Shown in pieces: positions 32,818 to 38,943 of a stretch of DNA of 64,000 nt. A model generated the notes under the pieces. That model ran no database searches. It saw nothing but the letters and a program-made list of their open reading frames with translations, and was not told where the DNA came from. The stretch is taken from assembly GCF_006475605.1 (NCBI RefSeq), contig NZ_SSBC01000010.1, positions 682,001 to 746,000 on the forward strand, given 5' to 3'. This stretch comes from Asticcacaulis tiandongensis. Lineage in GTDB: Bacteria > Pseudomonadota > Alphaproteobacteria > Caulobacterales > Caulobacteraceae. Within the stretch, counting starts at the first letter, position 1, and every line of letters starts with the position of its first letter. The position numbers were made by a program, and so were the translations under genes.

Positions 32818-34170
32818 ATGTTTGAAAAGATTCTTATTGCCAACCGTGGCGAGATCGCTTTGCGCGTTATCCGCGCCTGTAAGGAAATGGGCATCGCCAC
32901 CGTGGCCGTCCATTCCGAGGCCGACCGTAACGCGCTGCATGTGCATCTGGCAGACGAAAGCGTCTGTATCGGGCCTGCACCGGCATCCAAGTCTTACCTG
33001 AACATCCCGTCGATCATTGCCGCCGCCGAAATCACCGGTGCGCAGGCCGTGCACCCGGGTTATGGCTTTTTGTCGGAAAATGCCCGCTTTGCCGAAATCA
33101 TCGGCGCGCACGGCCTGACCTTTATTGGTCCGAAGCCTGAGCATATCCGCCTGATGGGCGACAAGATTACGGCCAAACAGGCCTCGAAAGATTCCGGCAT
33201 CCCCGTAGTTCCCGGTTCTGACGGTGGTGTGGCCACGGTTGAAGAAGCCATTGAGGCAGCCAAATCCATCGGCTTCCCGCTGATCATTAAGGCCGCTGCC
33301 GGTGGTGGTGGTCGCGGCATGAAGGTCGCCAAGGATGCGGACTCTCTGGCCGAAGCGGTCATGAGCGCCCAGTCCGAAGCCGCTGCCGCCTTTGGTGACG
33401 GCACGGTCTATATGGAGCGCTATCTCCAGAAGCCGCGCCACATTGAAATTCAGGTCATCGCCGACAGCCACGGCAATGTCGTACATCTGGGTGAACGCGA
33501 CTGCTCACTGCAACGTCGCCACCAGAAGGTACTTGAAGAAGCCCCCTCGCCCGCCATTGATGCCGACGCCCGCTCAAAGATCGGCAACATCGTTGTCGAG
33601 GCGATGAAAAAGATTGGTTACCTCGGGGTTGGCACGATCGAGTTCCTGTATGAAGACGGTGAGTTCTTCTTTATCGAGATGAACACCCGCCTTCAGGTCG
33701 AGCATCCGGTGACTGAATTCATCACCGGCGTTGACCTTGTACGCGAACAGATTCGCATCGCCGCTGGCCTGCCCCTGTCGTTTACGCAGGAAGATATCGA
33801 CTTCAAAGGGCACTCGATCGAAGTCCGTATCAATGCGGAAAATGCCCGTACCTTTGTACCCTCCCCCGGCACGGTCACCGATTTCCACGCTCCCGGCGGG
33901 CTTGGGGTGCGCATCGATTCGGCGGTCTATAATGGCTATGCCATTCCGCCCTATTACGATTCCATGATCGGCAAGCTGATCGTGCACGGTCGTGACCGGC
34001 CCGAAGCTTTGGCCCGCCTTAAGCGTGCGCTTCAGGAAACGGTTATTACGGGTATTGAAACCACTATCCCGCTGTTCCTTGACCTTCTGAATGAAAAAGA
34101 CATCCAGAACGGGGATTACAATATCCACTGGTTGGAAAACTGGATTAAGGCACAGACAGCAGGGGCTTAG
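32818..34170 (+). CDS. accC: Biotin carboxylase subunit of acetyl-CoA carboxylase
   Basis: A 450-residue ATP-grasp enzyme that carboxylates the biotin of AccB using bicarbonate and ATP. The family start [20 protein letters not shown], the glycine-rich ATP lid [12 protein letters not shown], the metal site [17 protein letters not shown] and the catalytic region are all present and full length. It directly follows accB. A REP-like element fills the 57 bases between its stop and aat. Confidence 0.98.
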
Positions 34171-34176
34171 GGCAAT

Positions 34177-34226
34177 GGACAGGGCCTTCTACCTCGGGTC
34201 AATCGGGTGCGGGGGCTAAGCCCCTG
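34177..34226 (-). repeat. REP-like palindromic repeat, copy D (inverted)
   Basis: The reverse complement reads GCAGGGGCTTAGCCCC, then GCACCCGATTGACCCGAGGT and an AAGGCCCTG end, a diverged copy of the family. Its hairpin (GGGGCT/AGCCCC) ends just before the aat ATG at 34228 and covers the place where a ribosome-binding site would be. Confidence 0.75.
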
Positions 34227-34227
34227 C

Positions 34228-34881
34228 ATGGCTGAGAGTTTTACCCTTGATGATCTTATCGCGGCGTATCGCACCGGCATCTTCCCGATGTCGGATGCCC
34301 GCGATGACGACTATCTGTTTCTGGTCGACCCGCCCATGCGCGGGATATTACCGCTGGATGGTTTTCACATCCCTTCGCGTCTGAAGCGCACGGTGGCCAG
34401 AGATGATTACACCGTCAAAATCGACACAGCCTTTACACAGATCATTGAACTGTGTGCCGAAGAAGCGGCTGACCGGGACAATACCTGGATTAGCCATCCT
34501 ATTCAGTCGCTTTATGAGGCCCTGTTCGCCCGTGGTCTGGCCCATAGCGTTGAGGTCTGGGACGGCGAAACCTTAATGGGCGGGCTTTATGGCGTGGCCA
34601 TTGGCGGGGCTTTTTTCGGCGAAAGCATGGTGTCACGCGCCCGCGATGTGTCAAAAATCGCGCTGGTGCATCTGGTGGCGCGGCTGAAGGCCGGGGGTTA
34701 CCGACTGCTCGATTGTCAGTTTCAGACGGACCACCTTAAACAGTTCGGTGTAATTGAAATTCCGCGTGACGATTACCGGTTTCTGCTGGCTAACGCGCTG
34801 GAAACCGAAGGCGATTTCTATTCCTTACCGGCCACAGTCACCGGCAAGGGCGCCCTGCAGGCCACCACCCAGGCATCATAG
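34228..34881 (+). CDS. aat: Leucyl/phenylalanyl-tRNA-protein transferase
   Basis: A 217-residue enzyme that attaches Leu or Phe to proteins with N-terminal Lys or Arg, marking them for ClpS-ClpAP degradation (bacterial N-degron pathway). Family motifs are AYRTGIFPM near the start, DPPMRGILPLDGFHIPSRLKR, and GGLYGVAIGGAFFGESMVSR, with LDCQFQTDHLKQFG towards the end. The ATG at 34228 gives the normal N-terminus, but no ribosome-binding site precedes it because a REP-like hairpin abuts the start. A GTG at 34207 would be within that repeat. The 3' end overlaps the convergent DUF2155 gene by 64 bases. Confidence 0.93.
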   Translation: MAESFTLDDLIAAYRTGIFPMSDARDDDYLFLVDPPMRGILPLDGFHIPSRLKRTVARDDYTVKIDTAFTQIIELCAEEAADRDNTWISHPIQSLYEALFARGLAHSVEVWDGETLMGGLYGVAIGGAFFGESMVSRARDVSKIALVHLVARLKAGGYRLLDCQFQTDHLKQFGVIEIPRDDYRFLLANALETEGDFYSLPATVTGKGALQATTQAS

Positions 34882-35525
34882 GCCGGATGCTCAAACGGAT
34901 TCAGCCCCGGTGACGAGGCATAGGACCAGCCCTGAAATACCTGACGCGGTTTGGGGATTACCCCCGCTGCTGACGGAGCCGGATTGGTGCGCACCTCAAG
35001 ATAGGCCATGGCATCCGACATGGGTTCTTCCGGGGCGCTGGTTTCACAGGCTTTCACCGTAAAAACAAGGCCTTTGTAGCGCACGGATTTCCCGACCTTG
35101 ACCTCAAACCGCATAGTCTCAGCGGTCACCTTATCGAGGGCCTGAATGACCGCAGAGCCATAGCGAATGCGCTTTTCCGGCGGCGGCGGAGGGGCTTTGG
35201 GGGTTTCCGGCTTTTCTGCAGCCGCAGACGCGGCCGACGCATCCGGACGATCCGGCGTCACATAGGGCGTGCCGCCCGGCGACACAGAGGTCGCTGAACC
35301 CGTAGCAGGGGCTGATGGCTGAGACGGTGTATTGGATGAGGCCTGAGACGGCTGCGCCGGTTTCTGGGCATCCGGCACAAACGGACGATATTCCACGCCG
35401 TCAATATAATAGACCTCAGAATCGTTATTCTGACCCGCATTCTGAGCATATAGCGGAAGGGCAAGGGCCGTTGCCCCCGCCAGCAGCAGCGCCGATTTTA
35501 CAACCGTCATCCGCATCCGTGCCAT
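34818..35525 (-). CDS. DUF2155 domain protein, predicted periplasmic
   Basis: A 235-residue protein with an N-terminal signal peptide (hydrophobic stretch to about residue 27, ending LPLYAQ). A long Pro/Ala/Ser-rich linker (residues ~45-115) is followed by the DUF2155 domain. That domain has VIQALDKVTAETMRFEVKVG and the strong FQGWSYASSPGLNPFEHPAYDAWVVACR motif, with a conserved cysteine pair. The function is unknown, but the gene regularly lies beside the NDUFA12 gene in Alphaproteobacteria. It starts 4 bases after the NDUFA12 stop, consistent with an operon. Confidence 0.85.
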   Translation of the reverse strand: MARMRMTVVKSALLLAGATALALPLYAQNAGQNNDSEVYYIDGVEYRPFVPDAQKPAQPSQASSNTPSQPSAPATGSATSVSPGGTPYVTPDRPDASAASAAAEKPETPKAPPPPPEKRIRYGSAVIQALDKVTAETMRFEVKVGKSVRYKGLVFTVKACETSAPEEPMSDAMAYLEVRTNPAPSAAGVIPKPRQVFQGWSYASSPGLNPFEHPAYDAWVVACRAPLPVTVAGKE

Positions 35526-35529
35526 GTGC

Positions 35530-35922
35530 TTACGGCTTCCACGCTTCGTAATCGCCGCTCGACTTCTGACGCTCGGCTTCGGCGTTCAGTGACCCCTTGG
35601 GGAAACGGGCAAACGGTGTGCCGGAAAAATTCGGCAGGTGCGGCTTTTCCCATGCTTTTTTCGGCAGGGCAGCTTCGGTCGGCGTATCGTCGTACATATA
35701 GTGCATCCAGCCGTGCCAGTCGGGCGGGATCTTCGAGGCGTCGGCATAGCCCTTATAGATGACAAAGCGACGCTTCTTGTCGCCATAGCTTTCTTTCAGG
35801 GTACGGGCTTCGTAATACTTGTTGCCGAACTCATCGGTGCCCACGTGGTTGGCGGAACGAAAAATGGTCCACAGCGTCCCTAAGGTCGCGCCGTTCCACC
35901 AGGTGAATGCCTTATCCAACAC
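35530..35922 (-). CDS. Complex I accessory subunit, NDUFA12 family
   Basis: A 130-residue member of the NADH:ubiquinone oxidoreductase 17.2-kDa subunit family (NDUFA12/B17.2), an accessory subunit found in mitochondria and Alphaproteobacteria. The core shows VGTDEFGNKYYEAR, RRFVIYKGYADASKIPPDWHGWMHY and a Pro-rich end. It probably sits at the peripheral arm of complex I, though the main nuo genes are not in this window. It is the first gene of a two-gene unit with the DUF2155 protein and is divergent from the NrdJ-like gene. Confidence 0.93.
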   Translation of the reverse strand: MLDKAFTWWNGATLGTLWTIFRSANHVGTDEFGNKYYEARTLKESYGDKKRRFVIYKGYADASKIPPDWHGWMHYMYDDTPTEAALPKKAWEKPHLPNFSGTPFARFPKGSLNAEAERQKSSGDYEAWKP

Positions 35923-36144
35923 GGGTTTTTTCCCTTAAAACACTAGATATCAGGCCGCTTGTAAGTCCAAAACGCCCCCAAGGCAAGCCAAAGACGCAAG
36001 CAATACCACGGGATAAACGCCGCGGCATACAATCAACATATTGTGGATCAAATTCACACGCACCACCAGATTTATTGCGCAAAAGGCAATTAACCCTTAA
36101 ACTGATGATAATATGGCGGTGCCCCACAGGAGCCTTGAAGAAAA

Positions 36145-38943
36145 ATGCGCAGCGATTCTTATCTTCCTGCCTCAGATTTCGCACAGCAACTGAACCTCAA
36201 CCTGTCGCCGGAAGTGCGTGAGATTGAACGCCTGGGGCATTTTGAAACGATTCTCTGCCCGCGTGACTGGACGCAGGCGCAGGCCGAAGCCTGGCTTGAC
36301 TGGGCGTCCGCCCTGCCCGCCGATTTACCTCAGGGTACGGATAAGGACGCTCACGCCCCTGACGCCTTCAGCGATATATTCGAAGGGGCCATTGATGCCT
36401 ATGTAAGCCGTCTGAGCGCCTGGGGAAAGGCGCTCGGCTACTTCACAGACGCCCCTGAGGCCAGCCATTTCTGGCGTGAACTCAGGGCGTCTCTGCTGCT
36501 GGGTTTCGCCGCACCGGCACAAAGCCTGCGCGGCGGCCACCGGTTACATCCACTAGCCGAAGACCAGTTACCGGAACCGACCGAAAGCCGGTTTCTGGCG
36601 CTTGATGATCATGCGACTACGGCGGCCCTGCATAATCTTCTGGTGACGGCGCGTTCCGAAACCATCGCCAAGGCCGCCTCTGATCAGCTTCATGCCGCCC
36701 TGTCCGATATATCCGCCGCCATTGCCCGCACAGACGGGCCGCAACGCCTGAGCTTGCAACACAATCCGGCTCTGGCCCGTGCCGCCCTTAAGGCCCGTAA
36801 ACTTGGGGCCACCGATTCACTCATTCAGCTGACCATTCAGTCAAGCCGCAATCTCGGTGAAGACACGCCCCTGCCCGACTGGTCGCAAAAACACGTCACC
36901 CCTGAGAGTGCCGCTTCGGCACCAACCATTGTCACGGCCGCGCGGGACATGATTGCCGCCGGTGATCCGTCTGCGCGTCTGGCGGCGCAGACCGCTTTTG
37001 AAAGCGGGCGTTTATGGCTTTGTTTTGATCCTCAGGCCGCCGAAGCGCTTGAGGCCAGCCTCATGGCCCCGCGTGCCGCTATCAACGCCTATGCGTTTCT
37101 GACAGATGACGGCTTTGACATCGACGGCTTCAGCGCCTGTGTGCGTCTGTGGACCATTGCCCTCGATATTGAGGCGTCGATTGCCTATAGCGCCTCGCAC
37201 ACCGCCGCCGCCCTTCTGAAGCGTCAACGGCCTCTGGCCCTGACCATAGCCGGTCTGAGTGATTGCCTGATGGCGCAGAACCTGAGCTATGGCCATGCAG
37301 ACGGGATCGACTTTGCCACAAGCCTGATGGCCCTGATGAATAGCGAATGCCTGCTGACCTCGGCGCATCTGGCGGTGCGGCTTGGGGCCTGTAAGGGCTT
37401 TAGTTCTGAGCGCGACCATTACCTTCATGGCCTGTCGCAAAAACCCTATCGGCTTGGCGCACTCAAAGGCTCCGGCCAGATCAAGGCGCATTGCCTGACG
37501 GCAGCGCAGGAAACCCTGAAACTGGCCAAAGCGACCGGCCTGCGCAACACCCAGATTGCCGCCCTGTTTGCCGACGAAGACCTGAGCTTACGTATCGGTC
37601 GCCCTTTAGGCGATGCCCCGGTCACAAGGCTTACGGCGACGCTGGAGAGCGAAGACGTCGCAGAAGTGCGCATCCTGCATGATGCAGTGCGCAAGGCCGT
37701 GAGCGATACAGACACGCTCGATAGACTGCGCCTGCATGTTCTGGGTAGCCGCAGCCTCTATGATGCGCCGCATATCAACGCTCAAAGCCTCAAGGCCAGG
37801 GGTTTGAGCGAGGTTGAAATCGGTCAGGTTGATGCCGCCCTGACAACCGCTTTCAATTTGCAATCAGCTTTTTCAACCGCTGTGCTTGATGCCGATTTCA
37901 TAAAGGATATCTGGGGCATAGATGATGAGGCTCTTGAGGCACCCGATTTCAGCCTCCTGAGCCTGATGGGCTTTGAGCCTGAGGCAATCGCCGCCGCCGA
38001 AGCCCATATCTTCGGACATGACACTATTGAAGGCCTTGAGCTCGACAGCGGTCTTAAGGCGGTTCTGTCGCCGCCGTCGCTTAAGATGCGCCTGCATATG
38101 CGTCAGGCCCTTGAGGCCTTTACAGGTGCCCCCGCCTCTGTGCCCATCAGGCTTAACGGGGATCAGACGCCTACGGATGCCCTCAAGCTTATGGCACTGG
38201 CCGCTGCCGAAGGTCTCGGGGCCGTCAGTTTTGTCCATAGACCGGCACCGGTGAACCAGCCACTCGATATTCCTGAATTTGAAGACGCACCGAAACGGAG
38301 TCTGCCCGAGGCCACGCACCCTGCCGAACCGGTGCAAAAGATTGTCGAAAAAATTGTCGAACGCGACCGCAGCCGTCAGAAACTGCCTGACCGGCGTAAG
38401 GGCTACATCCAGAAAGCCAGTGTCGGCGGCCATAAGGTCTATATCCATACCGGCGAATATGACGACGGTGCATTGGGCGAAATCTTCATCGATATGCACA
38501 AGGAAGGCGCGGCCTTCCGATCGCTGATGAACAATTTCGCCATCGCCGTATCGATTGGCCTGCAATATGGCGTGCCGCTCGATGAATTTGTCGATGCCTT
38601 TGTCTTTACGCGCTTTGAGCCAGCAGGCCCCGTATCGGGTAATGACTCGATCAAATCCGCCACTTCGATTCTTGACTATATTTTCCGTGAACTGGCCATT
38701 TCCTATATGGGCCGCGACGATCTGGCCAATGCCGATCCCGATGCGCTCAATGCCGATGGTCTGGGGCAGGGTCACGGAAGCGGCCTTAAGGAGGAAGGTG
38801 ACGGCGAAGCCATGGCCGCCTCACAGTTCATTTCCAAAGGCTTTATGCGCGGGCAACCGGACAATCTGGTCGTTGTCCCCTTCAACCGCAAACCGGAAAC
38901 GCCCCGCGAGCCAGACCACCTTAACGAAGCCAATAACGAGTAA
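36145..38943 (+). CDS. NrdJ-like protein, apparently without catalytic core
   Basis: A 932-residue uninterrupted frame. Residues ~746-910 match the conserved C-terminal domain of alphaproteobacterial B12-dependent (class II) ribonucleotide reductase: KLPDRRKGY, VGGHKVYIHTGEYDDGALGE, FIDMHKEGAAFRSLMNNF and GNDSIKSATSILDY. Weaker NrdJ similarity persists at residues ~313-410 (FDIDGFSACVRLWT) and ~507-690 (INAQSLKARGLSEVEIGQ). I cannot find the glycyl/thiyl-radical loop, the NPC cysteine region, the GSGTGSNFS-like phosphate loop or a C-terminal redox CxxC. The protein is about 270 residues shorter than family length as I know it. It may be a pseudoenzyme with a regulatory or scaffold role. The start has GAAGAA upstream. 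Confidence 0.75.
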   Translation: MRSDSYLPASDFAQQLNLNLSPEVREIERLGHFETILCPRDWTQAQAEAWLDWASALPADLPQGTDKDAHAPDAFSDIFEGAIDAYVSRLSAWGKALGYFTDAPEASHFWRELRASLLLGFAAPAQSLRGGHRLHPLAEDQLPEPTESRFLALDDHATTAALHNLLVTARSETIAKAASDQLHAALSDISAAIARTDGPQRLSLQHNPALARAALKARKLGATDSLIQLTIQSSRNLGEDTPLPDWSQKHVTPESAASAPTIVTAARDMIAAGDPSARLAAQTAFESGRLWLCFDPQAAEALEASLMAPRAAINAYAFLTDDGFDIDGFSACVRLWTIALDIEASIAYSASHTAAALLKRQRPLALTIAGLSDCLMAQNLSYGHADGIDFATSLMALMNSECLLTSAHLAVRLGACKGFSSERDHYLHGLSQKPYRLGALKGSGQIKAHCLTAAQETLKLAKATGLRNTQIAALFADEDLSLRIGRPLGDAPVTRLTATLESEDVAEVRILHDAVRKAVSDTDTLDRLRLHVLGSRSLYDAPHINAQSLKARGLSEVEIGQVDAALTTAFNLQSAFSTAVLDADFIKDIWGIDDEALEAPDFSLLSLMGFEPEAIAAAEAHIFGHDTIEGLELDSGLKAVLSPPSLKMRLHMRQALEAFTGAPASVPIRLNGDQTPTDALKLMALAAAEGLGAVSFVHRPAPVNQPLDIPEFEDAPKRSLPEATHPAEPVQKIVEKIVERDRSRQKLPDRRKGYIQKASVGGHKVYIHTGEYDDGALGEIFIDMHKEGAAFRSLMNNFAIAVSIGLQYGVPLDEFVDAFVFTRFEPAGPVSGNDSIKSATSILDYIFRELAISYMGRDDLANADPDALNADGLGQGHGSGLKEEGDGEAMAASQFISKGFMRGQPDNLVVVPFNRKPETPREPDHLNEANNE

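Follow-up and report, generated by a model that had tools for sequence, protein, structure and literature searches.

The nrdJ locus of Asticcacaulis tiandongensis

A gene may outlive the chemistry for which it was named. The window considered here, a stretch of 64,000 nucleotides from Asticcacaulis tiandongensis (Caulobacteraceae; NZ_SSBC01000010.1, positions 682,001 to 746,000 of the forward strand), carries at 36145-38943 (+) an nrdJ-like gene that descends from alphaproteobacterial class II ribonucleotide reductase (RNR) and has lost the catalytic residues tested in it. Its product, called pseudo-NrdJ below, begins at an ATG and runs for 932 residues uninterrupted by stops, as an earlier note on the bare sequence had read it, and is encoded by a single copy in a host genome of 3.22 Mb that is 99.98% complete. 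Throughout, 'dead' denotes an NrdJ-type protein without NPCSE and the other catalytic motifs and 'live' a protein that holds NPCSE, both as placed in an alignment of 59 proteins. The gene divides as follows.

36145..38943, + strand: pseudo-NrdJ, class II RNR of the dead type (intact frame, Pfam, NF005736, phmmer, alignment, ratio of non-synonymous to synonymous substitution rates or dN/dS)
36145..37074, + strand: N-terminal part, residues 1-310, shortened and diverged (alignment; dN/dS 0.05-0.18 in close pairs)
37075..37785, + strand: barrel remnant, residues 311-547, without the PTGT phosphate loop (PF02867, E 5e-16; alignment; AlphaFold and Foldseek)
38374..38724, + strand: TSCPD domain core, residues 744-860 (alignment of 59; PF12637 at 758-851; model)
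38827..38874, + strand: short motif past the TSCPD domain, residues 895-910, SKGFxR...NLV (alignment)

In Pfam, residues 311-547 match PF02867, the barrel, over profile positions 230-459 of 523 only, and residues 758-851 match PF12637, the TSCPD domain (E 3e-10; 40.7 bits, above the gathering cut-off of 22.8). Against NCBIfam NF005736, which models the whole alphaproteobacterial NrdJ, the protein reaches 412 bits, below the curated cut-off of 1737. Against the PDB, phmmer aligns residues 311-707 with the class II RNR of R. sphaeroides (7b9p, E 6e-23), the nearest solved structure by sequence, so that similarity beyond the C-terminal domain is significant. The closely matching C-terminal part spans about residues 744-912, in line with the roughly 170 residues that the note had picked out. 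The note had also judged the protein short for its family: pseudo-NrdJ is 256-338 residues shorter than eight live proteins of Caulobacterales (1188-1270 residues), and its N-terminal part has either a deletion or other sequence where live NrdJ bears the NPCSE finger loop and its first redox cysteine. By eye, an island NPALARAAxxAR is kept there at residues 205-235 (36757-36849), with N207, L210 and A217 nearly invariant; at residues 276-344 the full-length NrdJ of locus L120 weakly matches the N-terminal domain of YebC/TACO1 (E 4e-4, under cut-off). Past the SKGFxR...NLV motif many other dead NrdJ carry a zinc ribbon, which is missing in the Asticcacaulis genus.

The suggestion that only the C-terminal domain had been kept needs correcting, for the body is confidently modelled and its best fold match in the PDB is again 7b9p. 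AlphaFold gave the whole protein a mean predicted local distance difference test score (pLDDT) of 82.8 and a predicted template modelling score of 0.74, with 515 residues at 90 or above, and Foldseek ranked 7b9p first for this model (E 1e-25, template modelling score 0.52, root-mean-square deviation 9.8). Blocks of the TSCPD domain averaged about 65-83 in the whole-protein model, and its core 94-97 when predicted alone.

Loss of the catalytic residues

What this body has lost is best seen in the alignment, which was built with 52 proteins at first and then with 59, selected from the fetched loci: 47 dead, pseudo-NrdJ included, and 12 live. Two of the 84 dead-labelled loci (L059 and L064), which start inside a contig-cut gene, carry PTGT and bear a label that is wrong or undecided, were left out of the 59-protein alignment, the tree and the rate comparison; the remaining distinct dead-labelled proteins (74 of 76), some of them contig-cut, have neither N.C.E nor PTGT. 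In L120 numbering C179, N452, C454, E456 and C465, which from RNR chemistry and the conserved NxCxE motif we take to be the redox and radical residues, stand in all 12 live proteins and in none of the 47 dead. Absent from every dead protein, then, are both putative active-site redox cysteines, C179 and C465, and the finger-loop radical cysteine motif NPCxE, which all 12 live proteins have. The phosphate loop fares little better, P650, T651 and G652 being aligned in 2, 0 and 4 of the 47 dead and in every live protein, and the strings N.C.E and PTGT are each found in 0 of 47 and 12 of 12.

At the C-terminus of S. nassauensis NrdJ, C920, C923, C936 and C939 have been proposed as zinc ligands, with zinc measurements agreeing for three of the four, and C933 and C945 as an electron shuttle (PMC5704485). 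By spacing to the latter, C1175 and C1187 of L120 would be the shuttle pair, and they are lost in 47 of 47 dead proteins; all four proposed zinc-ligand cysteines are kept in 25 of them, the 22 without a ribbon being all 20 aligned rows of the Asticcacaulis genus together with L115 and L159. Judged by alignment, residues for turnover are lost in dead NrdJ and proposed zinc ligands often retained. No C-terminal CxxC was found in the aligned pseudo-NrdJ, and its seven remaining cysteines (38, 293, 332, 374, 402, 416 and 450) lie outside all catalytic motifs. The radical and redox cysteines, phosphate loop and CxxC that the note could not recognise are thus absent from the aligned positions, and a check for catalytic cysteines and loops at shifted positions found none among the 47 dead proteins, which rules out a displaced motif. 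An assembly or frameshift artefact is likewise ruled out, since similar length and the same losses recur across many genomes.

It is very probable that proteins of this type are unable to reduce ribonucleotides; judged by its residues pseudo-NrdJ is not an RNR, and no sign of RNR-like working was seen in it. That it is still an active reductase, through displaced residues or as complement to another subunit in the manner of split NrdJa and NrdJb, we hold to be extremely improbable: the overall RNR fold appears to be partly retained, but the 47 dead proteins have no N.C.E, no PTGT and no aligned redox cysteine, and a further one-piece barrel occurs in 7 of 61 relatives and not in the host genome. 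The sole other RNR barrel of the host is a 625-residue NrdA, whose NLCAE marks it as class I and which carries ECLAC at the C-terminus, accompanied by one NrdB and one NrdR gene; a second NrdJ that might serve as partner was sought in this genome and none was found. The survey for a second reductase that the note had proposed found a class I NrdB in all 61 genomes, weakly in the live-NrdJ genome G044 (G044:C50:19873-20394, E 6e-7), which has an NrdA-type barrel. The additional barrels of the seven relatives (G026, G029, G030, G031, G037, G043 and G053; frames of 582-828 residues) are probably class II. One genome of the Asticcacaulis genus, G015, apparently has two nrdA genes (G015:C1:278725 and G015:C2:487311).

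Selection and retention

The note had taken the uninterrupted frame as a hint of selection, and had proposed dN/dS across orthologues as the check. In the 14 closest pairs within the genus (dS 0.13-0.57; the pairs share genomes) dN/dS was 0.055-0.136 for the whole gene, 0.00-0.05 for TSCPD and 0.04-0.24 for other regions, far below 1 and far from neutral. With this, all three outcomes that the note had named as refuting were checked and none was seen. All 24 other genus genomes examined carry the gene, 22 of them in a single open frame of 918-959 codons and two split at contig ends, and among the Caulobacteraceae genomes of at least 90% completeness TSCPD was found in 191 of 199, most of these family genes being judged by frame length alone. 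The five longest family frames among the matches listed have neither the finger-loop motif nor PTGT, which rules out that the long frames in these five genomes are live enzymes.

A slowly decaying pseudogene would account for the missing catalytic residues, for the fast-evolving body and for a frameshifted copy in L124, but it would not leave all 24 other genus genomes free of broken frames (two being merely split at contig ends), dN/dS well below 1 in every region and TSCPD in nearly the whole family, and we regard it as ruled out for practical purposes, with a residual probability that is next to nothing. The frameshift at L124 (G035, Caulobacteraceae) lies just upstream of TSCPD and separates a 615-residue barrel remnant from a 227-residue TSCPD frame; it may be a sequencing error or a genuine split. 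Conservation of the C-terminal part at the nucleotide level was also ruled out, synonymous difference being barely lower there (mean pS 0.56 vs 0.61-0.65).

Probable degeneration in place

The neighbourhood of the gene identifies its origin through three sets of markers, each assigned by Pfam and synteny.

35530..35922, - strand: NDUFA12 gene (PF05071), divergent neighbour and marker of the ancestral nrdJ locus
34818..35525, - strand: DUF2155 gene (PF09923), second locus marker
32818..34881, + strand: biotin carboxylase (accC-type) and leucyl/phenylalanyl-tRNA protein transferase (aat-type) genes, further locus markers

An arrangement of accC and aat, followed by DUF2155 and NDUFA12 on the opposite strand and lastly by nrdJ, is found with both shortened and full-length genes, the latter at three of eight live Caulobacterales loci (L122, L123 and L127) and in other groups (e.g. 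L065, L094, L098, L111 and L112). This shared order points to an orthologous nrdJ that degenerated in situ, and bears out the expectation that a normal nrdJ would sit beside NDUFA12 and DUF2155; the order was not seen within the available flank at the other five live Caulobacterales loci and at many elsewhere. Downstream, a pentapeptide-repeat protein gene (PF00805, 39013-39504 in the window) follows nrdJ in most Caulobacterales loci whose sequence extends that far.

Constraint on the TSCPD domain, within the order and beyond

With AccC identity as yardstick, over 28 dead and 11 live loci that have a complete accC and uncut genes, TSCPD and the rest of dead NrdJ part company. For pairs at AccC 70-75%, dead Caulobacterales (100 pairs) share 71.0% identity in TSCPD and 19.8% in the rest of the protein, live NrdJ (17 pairs) 69.0% and 68.0%; at AccC 65-70% the figures are 71.0% and 19.0% for the dead (39 pairs) and 66.7% and 64.6% for the live (30 pairs), the dead 'rest', at about 20%, being close to the alignment floor. 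The higher AccC bins hold only two and one live pairs, and the single live pair at AccC 80-85% has a TSCPD identity of 92.4% vs 80.5% for the dead. Over the 59 aligned dead and live proteins 60 columns are invariant: P39, 58 within residues 744-860, and R902. Within Caulobacterales, it follows from the rate comparison, catalytic death freed the body and left TSCPD about as constrained as it is in live NrdJ.

Beyond the order the module recurs in still more reduced company. NF005736 is over its cut-off in 139 of 240 genomes of the class and matches at all in 212; a search with TSCPD alone matched in 11 of 27 genomes hand-picked for a weak, partial or absent NF005736 match, and eight of the 11 were read (the other three are G077, G232 and G123). 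Three of the proteins have no barrel by Pfam, in three genomes from two families other than Caulobacteraceae: L155, of 278 residues, is TSCPD with a four-cysteine ribbon, and L156 and L157, of 274 and 272 residues, have TSCPD with a different N-terminus; all three keep the SKGFxR...NLV motif, and their genomes measure 1.2-1.4 Mb, the fetched stretches having a G+C content of 27-29%. The N-terminal extension of L156 (6144-6965) and L157 (5909-6724), both in AT-rich genomes of 1.2 Mb, comes to roughly 100 additional residues without a Pfam match. Of intermediate size are L160, L161 and L162 (533, 526 and 663 residues) and L158 (912 residues), and L159, at 1190 residues, is barely shortened yet has neither NPCSE nor PTG. 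NDUFA12 lies near seven of the eight outside loci, L158 having none of the neighbours.

The tree built from TSCPD (101 rows, of which 48 are dead and 53 live; several very long branches) requires at least seven changes between dead and live states (bootstrap 5-8; strongly supported branches force two). A single clade of all dead forms was rejected (p-AU 0.005), and one of the 40 dead Caulobacterales was not (p-AU 0.448), which suggests several losses in the class and allows for one within the order.

It is possible, though on balance doubtful, that TSCPD is a core alphaproteobacterial module with a duty, perhaps sensing or steering the supply of deoxynucleoside triphosphates (dNTPs) for replication, that outlived ribonucleotide reduction. 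On this view several lineages independently lost the reductase and retained the module in its ancestral place, in the extreme as a stand-alone protein of 272-278 residues in genomes of 1.2-1.4 Mb. The looser TSCPD outside the order, for which figures are given below, tells somewhat against this broader proposal.

Upstream NrdR-box-like motifs

The NrdR box has the consensus acaCwAtATaTwGtg and typically occurs in two copies at helical spacing (PMC4009431). A scan of the 250 bases upstream for box pairs 31-33 bases apart at p <= 0.05, together with an upstream alignment, located two such motifs before the pseudo-NrdJ gene.

36031..36046, + strand: first NrdR-box-like 16-mer, starting 114 bases before the start codon
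36063..36078, + strand: second NrdR-box-like 16-mer, 32 bases downstream of the first

Both are imperfect matches to the consensus. The pair has a p of 0.005 at the pseudo-NrdJ gene, 0.005 at the host nrdA and a marginal 0.06 at nrdB; it was found at 19 of 20 tested genes of the genus and 13 of 19 in the rest of Caulobacteraceae, at 3 of 117 control upstream regions, and at half of the live genes outside Caulobacterales (10/20). When 14 upstream sequences, chosen among pair-bearing genes, are aligned, 19 columns are invariant and 18 of these lie inside the two boxes. NrdR control of the dead nrdJ in Caulobacteraceae is therefore, as these motifs suggest, likely.

Such co-expression with nrdA in Caulobacteraceae, if real, would suit a role dedicated to class I NrdAB, as its regulator or scaffold, in which dead NrdJ binds NrdA, NrdB or the reductant and tunes activity or assembly. 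Pseudoenzymes often tune the activity or assembly of a live relative, and NrdB accompanies dead NrdJ in every carrier examined; a real NrdJ, moreover, loses dATP-induced oligomer formation when its C-terminal domain is removed (PMC5704485). NrdB is also found in the live-NrdJ genomes of the order, however, so that co-occurrence says little, and it is the body, the natural RNR-like contact, that has diverged most. We rate this role as unlikely.

We give the same odds to a job for TSCPD that has nothing to do with deoxynucleotides, such as RNA work or the assembly of a respiratory complex, with its place in NrdJ a matter of history. TSCPD does persist without any RNR body, NDUFA12 is often conserved alongside, and the NrdR-like pair is missing from 17 of 19 dead genes tested outside Caulobacteraceae. 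But the same domain, about equally constrained, is part of full-length NrdJ enzymes, and the neighbours belong to a longer conserved stretch, such that adjacency may be mere old gene order.

A pseudoenzyme probably kept for its tail

We consider it probable, with moderate confidence, that an ancestral nrdJ became a pseudoenzyme that is mostly kept for its TSCPD domain, likely a binding or regulatory module in DNA-precursor supply. Class I NrdAB would supply deoxynucleotides, and the active site of NrdJ could for this reason erode; that the gene is mostly kept all the same, with TSCPD constrained within Caulobacterales about as in live NrdJ, would mean that TSCPD does something else. The folded, fast-evolving barrel remnant would be a platform at most, and TSCPD, most likely, a non-catalytic module that engages a conserved partner; in Caulobacteraceae NrdR would govern production of the protein alongside that of the real reductase. 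The note had offered two functions: a role of the domain's own fits better, because TSCPD survives also without the barrel, and the scaffolding of another reductase fits less well, although a role around class I RNR is possible.

Several observations weigh against this interpretation. The barrel remnant is itself under purifying selection within the genus, and TSCPD is perhaps not the whole function; the gene is losable, as TSCPD is missing from eight of the 199 family genomes (G026, G300, G313, G327, G338, G340, G363 and G404) and the gene from four of 61 relatives. With five outside dead loci added (L155, L156, L157, L159 and L162), dead TSCPD identity is 62.2% (standard deviation 13.3) at AccC 65-70% vs 66.7% in live NrdJ, and 51.6% (standard deviation 12.1) at AccC 60-65% vs 65.3%, so that outside Caulobacterales the domain is, on these comparisons, retained but looser. 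The box pair is rare beyond the family, occurring once among 11 other dead Caulobacterales, once among 8 dead genes outside the order and once among 8 live Caulobacterales. Foldseek returned no match to the TSCPD model at E 0.001 or better, and ISCU chains came at ranks 27 and 47 with E about 1; an IscU-like domain has been reported in long class II RNR C-termini (PMC9669993), and the modelled likeness is not confirmed by Foldseek. The TSCPD sequence found no convincing relative in the PDB either (best E 6).

Last among these is L059, a 5.2 kb contig titled Brevundimonas whose gene (2-2119) is cut at the 5' end. The barrel is of the live type, with CNLAS and PTGT and about 60-69% identity to the live NrdJ of other groups, and is joined to a dead-type tail that ends in the four-cysteine ribbon without the redox pair. 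The contig's pentapeptide gene is 72-76% like those of other Brevundimonas loci, and the join may be a chimera of metagenome assembly or a real recombination in TSCPD.

Comparison with known systems

Pseudo-NrdJ shares with the long alphaproteobacterial NrdJ (NF005736; 7b9p and 7b9q) its locus, segment order, what appears to be a partial barrel fold, TSCPD and the SKGFxR tail motif, and differs from it in being shorter and lacking the radical, redox and phosphate-loop residues, with the zinc ribbon gone in the genus. TSCPD occupies the same C-terminal place as the CRD of S. nassauensis NrdJd (PMC5704485) and the IscU-like and zinc-finger C-termini of PMC9669993, and the six-cysteine spacing of its full-length relatives agrees within one residue with these published class II C-termini. 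The published CRD serves a live enzyme, in electron delivery, effector affinity and oligomers, whereas the TSCPD discussed here outlives catalysis; according to PMC9669993, the IscU-like domain had no reported role. In the split class II RNR of Pseudomonas (NrdJa and NrdJb) the C-terminal domain is likewise able to sit on a separate chain (PMC5704485, PMC9669993), but there the other chain is an active barrel, and the only other barrel of the host genome is the class I NrdA.

The Caulobacter crescentus orthologue, CCNA_01966, has been tabled as a vitamin B12-dependent ribonucleotide reductase (PMC5869019), and B12 is described as serving dNTP production in this species, with NrdJ (CCNA_01966) listed in the nucleotide-reduction pathway (PMC6538847). 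A C. vibrioides control scores over the TSCPD cut-off and not over that of the full-enzyme NF005736, and the Caulobacter-titled loci L034, L035 and L040 all have dead NrdJ; from these scores and loci it follows that the CCNA_01966 protein is very probably dead too. One 50-base segment of CCNA_01966, annotated (-, I, A), was recovered together with the small RNA GsrN of Caulobacter by co-purification (PMC5869019).

If the proposed account is right, selection goes on preserving a task of the TSCPD part of class II RNRs once catalysis has been lost. This would explain how B12-dependent activity disappears while the gene persists, and the task is open to a deletion test in Caulobacter, a genetic model. 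In the open-licence literature, as far as it was covered, neither a dead NrdJ nor a function for TSCPD is described, which is weak evidence of absence. Pseudoenzymes as such are a known kind, and what was unseen in the searched literature is a class II RNR pseudoenzyme across most of a bacterial family, with its tail alone elsewhere. The viral pseudo-R1 proteins reuse an RNR body without reduction, for functions that are not those of RNR; they are class I and viral, and pseudo-NrdJ is class II, bacterial and still at its ancestral locus.

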